Virus record (IMG/VR): IMGVR_UViG_3300006990_000071
Span: 1 to 39,531 of that record
Length of the DNA: 39,531 nt
Origin: a virus
Strand: one strand, 5' to 3'
In this document: positions 4,358 through 36,889 of the stretch, one piece after another
Layout: each line of letters starts with the position of its first letter
Numbering within the stretch: the stretch's first letter is position 1
Position numbers and translations under genes: made by a program
The notes under the pieces: generated by a model
What the model was told of the DNA's origin: nothing
The model's database searches: none
What the model saw: only the letters and a program-made list of their open reading frames with translations

Positions 4358-4747
4358 TTAAAACGGTTTAATCTTTTCGTCATCTGACATTAATTGGTGC
4401 GAATAACAATATTCATCGATGTTATAGAAACTATATTGACCCTTTAATACCTTCAGACCTCTTACTTGGTCATATGCTGCACTACGTTTTGTTGGTGTGC
4501 TGAAGATTTGTTCTTTATTAAGCATTGGAGGACAATGATAGAAAAACCATTTAATACTCTTAAAGTCATCTATCAGGTCTAAGACTATTGTAAATTCTTC
4601 CATTGGATAACAATAATCATTTAAATCTGTAATAACTTCTATTTTAATACAGAACTTTTCTTTAGCTGCTACAAATCTTCTAAATACATCTACAATTCTT
4701 ACAGCATATCTACCATCTTCAAGTGATTTGACAAATATTTCGTTCAT
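4358..4747 (-). CDS. Hypothetical protein, 129 aa
   Basis: First gene of the minus-strand operon ending at 2.4 kb. I chose ATG 4747 (AGG 11 nt upstream); the frame stays open to a GTG at 4780. The sequence is rich in Tyr, Phe, Asp and Lys (DDFKSIKWFFYHCPPML, QYSFYNIDEYCYSHQLM), with alternating strand-like segments. It suggests a small globular cytosolic protein. There is no signal peptide, membrane segment or recognised motif. Spacing to the next gene is 9 nt, with that gene's ribosome site in between. Confidence 0.6.
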   Translation of the reverse strand: MNEIFVKSLEDGRYAVRIVDVFRRFVAAKEKFCIKIEVITDLNDYCYPMEEFTIVLDLIDDFKSIKWFFYHCPPMLNKEQIFSTPTKRSAAYDQVRGLKVLKGQYSFYNIDEYCYSHQLMSDDEKIKPF

Positions 4748-4863
4748 ATAATATAACCTATAATATATACTAAATATCACTTATATTACTTTTTGATAGT
4801 AATATCTAATATTTTTTTATATTTTATAAGTTATGAATACTAAGACGCTCGTAAAAAGAATAC
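4748..4863. other. AT-rich upstream region of the 4358-4747 gene
   Basis: Nothing coding is seen. Leftward it holds several TATA-rich stretches (for example TTATAAAATATAAA) suitable as -10 elements, but no -35 box can be chosen with confidence. Confidence 0.4.
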
Positions 4864-4978
4864 AAAAAAAGGCTAAGCTGACAATCCATAGCCCCTGTAT
4901 ATATTCAGGAGTTGCGAAATTCCCGTAAGCACTAAATGCCCTGTTTAAGAGTGTGTGGCCGTGTTTGTCAGCTTAGCC
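4864..4978 (-). ncRNA. Candidate structured small RNA ending in a T tract
   Basis: On the minus strand GGCTAAGCTGACAA (4978-4965) pairs perfectly over 14 nt with TTGTCAGCTTAGCC (4884-4871), which is immediately followed by seven T. The 80 nt in between is less AT-rich than the surroundings and holds further hairpins (CCTG / CAGG around 4894-4909, GCA / TGC around 4929-4939). A long closing stem around a structured interior plus a terminator-type end suggests a free-standing RNA of ~110 nt. It does not match tRNA, tmRNA, 6S or any riboswitch I recognise. An unusually long terminator is the minimal explanation. Confidence 0.55.
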
Positions 4979-5092: not shown

Positions 5093-5145
5093 TTTTAATA
5101 CCTTTTTAAAGTTTTAGTTATATATATTATTAAAGGAGAGAATTT

Positions 5146-5764: not shown

Positions 5765-6508
5765 ATGGTAAGAAAAACACAAAAAGGTTTAGCACATACA
5801 GTTAGAAGCTCGTTGACTGCTAATAAAGAAAATATGAAGAAAAGTGGCCGAAGGGCTCACAAAAATGGTCTCACGCTCGAAAAGGCAGTTGAAGCATATG
5901 GCAGACAACTGATAGAAGATGATAACTTTGAGATAGAGTTATATAGAAATCACGACGCAATGCAAAAGGCTCGAGGACGTGGTGGCAGACTTACAGCATT
6001 TACAACTGGAGTTAGTCCTTGTGATTTTACATTCTTTTGCTCTACTAAAACTTTTGCTTGGGTTGAAGGTGGTATGATAGAAGCTAAAAGCAGACAACGT
6101 AAAAGTATAAATAAATCTGCTCTATCTCACCATCAAAAAGAACAACTAATTCGTATGGAGAAGTTAGGTAAGTGTGGATTAGTTTTAGTTTCACTTACTG
6201 ATAGTAATGATGAGCCTATGTTTTTTATTGTGCCTATTACTCATTGGTATCGTGGCCAGAAAAAAAGTCACAACATAGAAGATATGCACGCTATAGGTTA
6301 TCTCTGCAAGACTGTATCTGTTTGGGATGATAATCAAAAAGAACATAAAGCTCCGGACATACTATCAGTCTTAAAGCAAATTGACGCAGATGATGGTTAT
6401 AAAGATGTCCCTAAAAAATATAAAGATTTAAATGACAACAAGAAGCTTAAAAATCCAGTTTATTCAACAATAGATGAAGATTTTGAAGACATCTTAGATG
6501 TTGACTAA
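5765..6508 (+). CDS. RecU-like Holliday junction resolvase (PD-(D/E)XK)
   Basis: 247 aa with the RecU-type arrangement. A conserved Glu helix (NGLTLEKAVEAYG, Glu39) is followed by a Gly/Asp motif (GVSPCDFTFF, Asp87), the EAK motif (GGMIEAKSRQR, Glu106-Lys108), then HHQKEQL (His122-Gln124). A hydrophobic strand GLVLVSL and a strand ending IVPITHW complete the fold. In RecU the Asp, Glu and Lys bind metal and the HQ region follows. The enzyme would resolve recombination or replication junctions before packaging. The basic N-terminal ~30 residues probably bind DNA, and the tail after ~205 is charged and variable. Its stop overlaps the next ATG (TAATG). Confidence 0.75.
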   Translation: MVRKTQKGLAHTVRSSLTANKENMKKSGRRAHKNGLTLEKAVEAYGRQLIEDDNFEIELYRNHDAMQKARGRGGRLTAFTTGVSPCDFTFFCSTKTFAWVEGGMIEAKSRQRKSINKSALSHHQKEQLIRMEKLGKCGLVLVSLTDSNDEPMFFIVPITHWYRGQKKSHNIEDMHAIGYLCKTVSVWDDNQKEHKAPDILSVLKQIDADDGYKDVPKKYKDLNDNKKLKNPVYSTIDEDFEDILDVD

Positions 6509-36018: not shown

Positions 36019-36543
36019 TTAAAAATTTACTTTATCAATATCTACACCCGCCTCAAGACGACTAATCGCTTTAAAGAGTTGGGCTTTTCTTTCGAAAGAG
36101 GCAGAAGATAGCTCTGCCATAGCTTTGTTAATTAATTCGGTGCGAGTTGGAGCAGCAGCTTCTGGAGCTTCTACGCTAACTTCTTCTTCTACGACTACAG
36201 TTGCTGATTTAACTACTGGCTCATTCTCAAGGTCTTCTACCTTTTTATTAAGCTCTTCAGTTTTTTCTTCAACGTTTTTCGTAATCTCTTCAGCTTTAAC
36301 TTCAATTGCTTTCTCAATATCCTCTTGTGAAGGGATGTTAAGAGCAGCTACTGCGTTAAGGATGCTGTCAAGTTTTGCTGAAAGTTCATCTACAGATTTG
36401 CTTAGACCTTCAAACTTAGCCGTATGCTCGGCTACTAAGGCGTCTGCTGACTTAGCAAGCTCTGTTGAAACTTTATTTTCAATTTCGAGAGTTTCCTTAA
36501 TCTCAGTAAGGATTGTCTCAACATTATTATTAGTTTCTGACAT
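36019..36543 (-). CDS. Scaffold-like acidic coiled-coil protein
   Basis: 174 aa from ATG 36543, which has AGGAG 9 nt upstream; the frame extends to 36591 without a ribosome site. It is almost wholly helical with clear heptads (ILTEIKETLEIENKVSTELA, AIEVKAEEITKNVEEKTEEL, NKKVEDLENE), acidic in the middle, and has a short C-terminal helical segment (LSSASFERKAQLFKAISRLE). Scaffolding proteins are encoded between protease and capsid, and the composition matches. As the preceding protease also carries a scaffold-like tail, this could instead be a second scaffold or a capsid-decorating protein. Its leader contains the promoter block at 36679-36703. Confidence 0.6.
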   Translation of the reverse strand: MSETNNNVETILTEIKETLEIENKVSTELAKSADALVAEHTAKFEGLSKSVDELSAKLDSILNAVAALNIPSQEDIEKAIEVKAEEITKNVEEKTEELNKKVEDLENEPVVKSATVVVEEEVSVEAPEAAAPTRTELINKAMAELSSASFERKAQLFKAISRLEAGVDIDKVNF

Positions 36544-36678
36544 TGTGTTTTCTCCTATAGAATTTATAATCTTATTTGATGCCGTTTGCATAGGCTTTGC
36601 TTGTTGCTATTGTTTGTGCAATATATACAAATATACCTTACTTGACAATAGAAAAACAATTAGAGCGAATTTTAGCGC

Positions 36679-36703
36679 GTTCCTATATTATATATACTGC
36701 AAC
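36679..36703 (-). promoter_or_regulatory. Promoter block for the scaffold/capsid genes, shared with the GIY-YIG promoter
   Basis: Reading leftward, GTTG, one base, AGTATATATA, then ATATAGGAAC. The block at 2336-2311 reads the same except for one substitution and a small change just before TAGGAAC. It has a TATAAT-like -10 but a weak -35, and it leaves a ~135-nt leader before the ATG at 36543, within which CTATTGT and ACAATAG can pair. Confidence 0.6.
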
Positions 36704-36809
36704 TGATTAATTTATTTAGTTATAAGTATATTTTTTTTATGTTTTGTTAGTTTAGATGTCGAAAACTTTATCTTTATATATTAAAAGCAAGTTTTATTTA
36801 TTTATTATT
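36704..36809. other. AT-rich non-coding stretch upstream of the capsid promoter
   Basis: No gene or clear structure is seen in this part of the 346-nt gap between the protease stop (36890) and the scaffold start (36543). It is almost purely A and T with several short T tracts. Confidence 0.4.
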
Positions 36810-36870
36810 CTGTTTTTATAGAAATATTTTTTTATATGTTTAATAATATATTTAAATTCTATAAAAACAG
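36810..36870. repeat. 14-bp perfect inverted repeat after the protease gene
   Basis: CTGTTTTTATAGAA (36810-36823) and TTCTATAAAAACAG (36857-36870) are perfect inverted repeats around 33 nt of AT-only sequence. It lies 20 nt past the protease stop on the minus strand. There is no T tract directly after the stem in that direction, so it is not a canonical terminator. An RNase III-type processing site, an mRNA-stabilising hairpin or a protein-binding dyad are possible. Confidence 0.6.
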
Positions 36871-36889
36871 AGTTAATCTGGGTTGTCTA

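Follow-up and report, generated by a model that had tools for sequence, protein, structure and literature searches.

The window analysed here, the whole 39,531-nt IMG/VR virus record IMGVR_UViG_3300006990_000071 (positions 1-39,531), encodes a tail sheath, baseplate proteins and a major capsid protein distantly like their counterparts in SPO1-like and Thermus phages; it also encodes a homing-endonuclease-like protein at 1333-2259 on the minus strand (phrog_314, E 3e-7). The locus of interest comprises a gene for a possible single-stranded DNA (ssDNA)-binding protein (4747-4358, minus strand), a candidate structured RNA (4978-4864, minus strand), an unannotated tiny ORF (5092-5012, minus strand), a 122-126-aa gene (plus strand), a 64-66-aa gene (minus strand) and a resolvase-like gene (5765-6508, plus strand), and this order is the same in all three of the phages compared below.

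Read from 4978 to 4864, the minus strand would give an RNA of ~115 nt with the order GGCUAAGCUGACAA-ACAC-GGCC-ACACACUCUUAAACA-GGGCAUUUAGUGCUU-A-CGGGAAUUUCGCAACUCCUG-AAUAUAUACAGG-GGCU-AUGGA-UUGUCAGCUUAGCC-UUUUUUU. Its closing helix, P1, consists of a 5' arm (GGCUAAGCUGACAA, 4965-4978) and a 3' arm (UUGUCAGCUUAGCC, 4871-4884) that are fully complementary over 14 bp and enclose 80 nt, and a TTTTTTT tract (4870-4864) abuts the 3' end of P1 on the minus strand only, the plus strand having none after the stem. A sequence-only reading of the window had singled out this perfect 14-bp stem around 80 nt, ending in a T tract, and the description was confirmed: the minus-strand fold of 4864-4978 has a predicted energy of -41.2 kcal/mol against a shuffled mean of -22.4 (z -5.73), a value equalled by none of 200 shuffles. 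Perfect inverted repeats of at least 14 bp with a loop of at most 150 nt occur twice in the window against 0.035 per shuffle, and one such repeat with a T tract at one end was found against none in 200 dinucleotide shuffles. For an intrinsic terminator, a "loop" of 80 nt within the stem is unusual. The same reading had placed the element in a gap without a convincing gene, which stands insofar as there is no ORF of at least 60 aa at 4864-4978 and the overlapping ORFs of at least 20 aa are not conserved among relatives, but it missed the conserved 26-aa ORF upstream. No DNA similar to 4864-4978 was found in the annotated phage collection, no host motif was recognised in the RNA, and a search for GTGTGTGG inside the phage returned as its sole match the complement of the RNA itself.

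Using the resolvase-like gene as a lead, we reached three IMG/VR records (L002, L003 and L008). The RNA in L002 is identical to that of the window; the neighbouring resolvase-like protein is 76% identical in L003 and 63% identical over the alignment in L008. A first covariance model (R1), built from the window sequence alone with no homologue in its training, gave as its best matches beyond the window and the identical copy a site in L003 (9213-9100, minus strand; 71.7 bits, E 3e-17) and a site in L008 (8525-8411, minus strand; 36.0 bits, E 2.5e-7 filtered and 4e-8 unfiltered), all of these E-values being rough by the tool's own warning, and with filters off the next best match after L008 had an E-value of 0.05. 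Both sites lie on the minus strand in the expected syntenic slot, between the downstream gene and the 122-126-aa gene, where the L003 RNA aligns directly with that of the window and the L008 RNA has a closing stem of very different sequence. Single-sequence minimum-energy folds of the L003 and L008 RNAs, made without the alignment, both give P1, P2, P3 and P4, while the window's own minimum-energy fold contains P1, P2 and P3 and lacks P4.

The RNA can be written as P1-J1/2-P2-[J2/3]-P3-P4-[J4/2] followed by a U7 tail. P2 pairs a 5' arm GGCC (4957-4960) with a 3' arm GGCU (4890-4893), is supported by the covariance-model match and by covariation, and reads GGGC/GCCU in L008, a compensatory change from C-G to G-C. 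J2/3 (4942-4956) is a predicted single strand that starts ACACAC and keeps CACAC-A/U-C in all three phages; the P3 hairpin (4927-4941, GGGCAU-UUA-GUGCUU) has two invariant outer G-U pairs, and P2 has one. The P4 hairpin (4906-4925, CGGGA...UCCUG) pairs in all three phages despite differing sequence, and J4/2 (4894-4905), likewise a predicted single strand, has a conserved AAU at its start in the alignment. The intrinsic-terminator-like U tract (4864-4870), directly 3' of P1, is invariant in all three phages. Compensatory changes affect 10 of the 14 P1 pairs and are also found in P2, P3 and P4.

In an alignment of the three distinct sequences (A13), all from one phage group and fitted to the window's structure, which biases it in that structure's favour, 95.3% of cells pair and 16 of 29 pairs have changed on both sides. 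None of 500 shuffles of the alignment reaches any of five covariation measures, sliding the pairing partners by 1-3 columns lowers pairing to 27-53% and destroys the signal, and RNAalifold recovers the same helices. Identity between the window and L008 varies by region (P1 8/28, J1/2 7/9, P2 6/8, J2/3 10/15, P3 stem 7/12, P4 stem 3/8, J4/2 6/12, U tract 7/7), with J1/2 and P2 the best conserved apart from the U tract and the drift in sequence lying in P1, which argues that P1 and P4 have been kept as pairing and J1/2 and P2 as sequence. What has persisted is therefore not a bare terminator stem around a lost interior. The G-U pairs that are invariant in P3 and P2, together with the one-sided U tract, fit a minus-strand RNA alone; an RNA from the plus strand was rejected because, read on that strand, the conserved G-U pairs would turn into C-A and no T tract would follow. 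On this comparative evidence, the minus strand of 4864-4978 encodes a structured RNA domain of ~115 nt whose structure, strand, ends and position are all conserved, and the earlier proposal of a structured RNA is strongly supported by homologues with compensatory changes that a covariance-model search of phage contigs located in L003 and L008, in the same slot.

A three-sequence model finds one copy of the RNA per record in four IMG/VR records, which represent three distinct phages, always in the same slot. Degenerate core-pattern scans of viral_contigs and genome_contigs yielded no further copy backed by this model, and the pattern matches in L006 and L019-L039 were treated as chance, the model giving no support at the matched places. 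Scans with resolvase and endolysin alignments yielded no additional record bearing the RNA; one endolysin relative, L012, has a different context and lacks the RNA, and there was no resolvase relative in genome_contigs. With one copy per record and no further supported copies, the family appears confined to this phage group within the collections searched. The viruses that carry it are uncultured contractile-tailed phages of one group. The L003 record (62,095 bases) has TerL-like halves at both ends, in which Walker A and B motifs can be read and whose Pfam match is weak (E 8.8e-4, below cut-off); this split of the terminase over the two record ends suggests a circularly permuted genome of ~62 kb. 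Elsewhere in the window, a perfect 15-bp hairpin (36809-36871) lies upstream of the gene at 36019-36591, and the syntenic place in the record of L003 (L045, ~831-895) has a hairpin with a different sequence; this is possibly a second conserved RNA element.

The sequence-only reading had recognised no RNA family, in agreement with Rfam 15, in which no copy matched a family at the gathering cut-off and the window RNA gave only chance-level matches at a relaxed cut-off. A weak match of L003 to the L10-leader (14.1 bits against a cut-off of 44), seen for neither the window nor L008, was dismissed as chance. Hammerhead and twister ribozymes were rejected, since they gave no Rfam match and we take their conserved core residues to be absent from this RNA. 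By these searches, the RNA belongs to no catalogued family and is previously uncatalogued. It resembles the small RNAs (sRNAs) derived from phages and from mRNA 3' ends, which have an intrinsic terminator at their end (PMC12197685, PMC9438474), in being small, terminator-ended and beside or 3' of a short coding gene, but here the core inside the terminator stem is branched and conserved, and neither a seed or target nor a sequence relative is known. It is also like the abiF motif RNA, or RCd22 (RF03085; PMC12373285), which is likewise structured, carried by phages, 88-132 nt long, equipped with a terminator and located 5' of a gene; RCd22, in contrast, combines two repeated hairpin motifs with a terminator that is separate from them. 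The abiF reading is not supported, as the RF03085 model does not match the RNA, and there is no Abi_2 protein among the neighbours tested. With ToxI the locus shares the order of RNA, terminator and protein gene, but ToxI consists of pseudoknots repeated in tandem, whereas here there is a single junction and no toxin was found in the neighbours. The packaging RNA of phi29 is ~115-120 nt long, with a closing helix and a branched interior, and our RNA is similar in all three respects. However, it has no match in Rfam, and the phages here have what appears from the L003 Walker motifs to be a conventional large terminase, which counts against a phi29-type packaging RNA, so that this identity is likewise not supported.

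The tiny ORF lies 33 nt upstream of the RNA on the same strand, is preceded by AAAGG, a ribosome-binding-like site, and encodes a 26-aa peptide with one predicted membrane segment (MKYKNSDAVAISIACFYFMCFLLPHL). Its homologues in L003 and L008 have 24 codons (MKNSDSIVISISLLYFFCFLLPCL and MKNTDNIVICISSFYFVCFLLSSI), and each of the three peptides has one hydrophobic stretch. Changes between the window and L003 number 13 at third positions versus 7 and 4 elsewhere, and dN is 0.25-0.31 with dS at 1.28 or saturated, values that indicate purifying selection on the ORF in all three phages. Upstream of the ORF lies a sigma-70-like promoter candidate (5152-5124, minus strand; TTGTCA-N17-TAATAT) whose hexamers are the same in L003, sigma-70-like sites being no more frequent in the window than expected by chance. 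The earlier description of the RNA as free-standing is doubtful, given the conserved tiny ORF 33 nt upstream and the promoter-like site ahead of that ORF; the most fitting reading is that the RNA forms the 3' domain of the short tiny-ORF transcript, probably as its terminator-bearing end. When the inferred whole transcript was folded, the RNA domain was mostly self-contained, with ~1.3-3.9 expected pairs to the 5' part versus ~29-32 internal ones.

The explanation that we tentatively place first is that the P1-clamped RNA forms the terminator-bearing 3' domain of the tiny-ORF transcript and acts in trans via a partner. RNA polymerase would start near 5117 and transcribe the gene for the 26-aa membrane peptide and then the RNA; P2-P4 would fold as they emerge, drawing the strands of P1 together, and P1 and the U tract would stop transcription and seal the 3' end, so that P1 would serve as both clamp and terminator. 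The product would be a ~250-nt transcript with the RNA as its 3' domain or, alternatively, this domain may be set free as a stable sRNA whose two ends are secured within P1. A partner would bind to a surface made up of the conserved J1/2-P2 region and the ACAC-rich single-stranded junction, which is the least certain step: our confidence falls from termination at P1 and the U tract, through the placement of the RNA as 3' domain of the peptide transcript, to the binding of a partner by the junction. We infer the partner-binding role, and our guess for the partner would be a host or phage protein; no binding partner or target of the RNA was found. The sequence-only reading had noted that phage small RNAs with long closing stems can sponge proteins or mimic host RNAs; either role is conceivable for this RNA. 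A bolder version, in which a new class of phage RNA closes its junction with a clamp and uses the ACAC-rich single strand to capture a host protein or RNA, as a decoy in counter-defence or takeover, and is made as one unit with the tiny membrane peptide, is in our view rather unlikely.

The most credible competitor, although doubtful, is a free-standing sRNA gene with its own promoter in the 33-nt gap, separate from the tiny ORF and acting in trans as a decoy or by pairing. P1 does mark both the 5' and the 3' end of the fold, as in many stable sRNAs, and the AT-rich gap has TATA-like strings, but no other part of the unit is conserved so little: the gap contains indels, keeps no hexamers across the phages and yielded no promoter-like site ahead of P1. 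Since this gap is poorly conserved and the promoter candidate lies upstream of the ORF, a single transcript is favoured over a separate sRNA promoter.

The downstream gene (4358-4747, minus strand) raises the question of control in cis. It is conserved in all three phages and encodes 129 aa from a conserved ATG, or 140 aa from an upstream GTG; the protein matches no Pfam family and no toxin family in Pfam or PADLOC. In one member, PHROG gives a weak hit to a single-strand DNA binding family (E 0.001), and a predicted model of low confidence (pLDDT 69) has several ssDNA-binding proteins among its weak, non-significant matches, so that the protein possibly leans towards an ssDNA-binding, OB-like fold. 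The RNA might then be a conditional terminator (attenuator) of this gene with the tiny ORF as leader peptide, a reading we consider improbable. The RNA-terminator-gene order is kept in all three phages, and autogenous control by an ssDNA-binding product, known for T4 gp32, would be conceivable by analogy. Yet P1 is 12-14 bp long and contiguous or nearly so, no alternative antiterminator pairing was noticed, and what is conserved in the peptide is a membrane segment rather than a string of regulatory codons. Furthermore, an AT-rich promoter-like motif (4769-4757, minus strand) lies between the terminator and the gene, which consequently need not rely on read-through. This motif, TATATWATATAGG, occurs 20 times in the window with up to two mismatches against 4.9 expected, a fourfold enrichment, with a further copy at 36682-36694 (minus strand) and 18 other places besides 4757-4769; it is enriched in L003 as well.

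A type III-like antitoxin RNA for a neighbouring toxin is very improbable: the RNA-terminator-gene order resembles the toxI-toxN and RCd22-abiF loci (PMC5086642, PMC12373285), but the element is single and not tandemly repeated, RF03085 does not match it, and the downstream product has no toxin family match and may instead bind ssDNA, which counts against a type III toxin. That the RNA is an ordinary terminator of the tiny gene, its interior kept by chance or recent descent, would fit a stem ending in a U tract, but this equally remote reading is already largely refuted by the comparative data, with P1 drifted between the window and L008 and J1/2 and P2 kept, and with compensatory changes in all three interior helices.

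What began as an observation on a single sequence is now an RNA family: its consensus structure has been tested, its boundaries are defined, a partner gene is likely and a covariance model can be used for searches. Comparative evidence has, to our knowledge, revealed few phage RNAs, and should this one act in trans, it would represent an uncatalogued kind of phage RNA for takeover or counter-defence.
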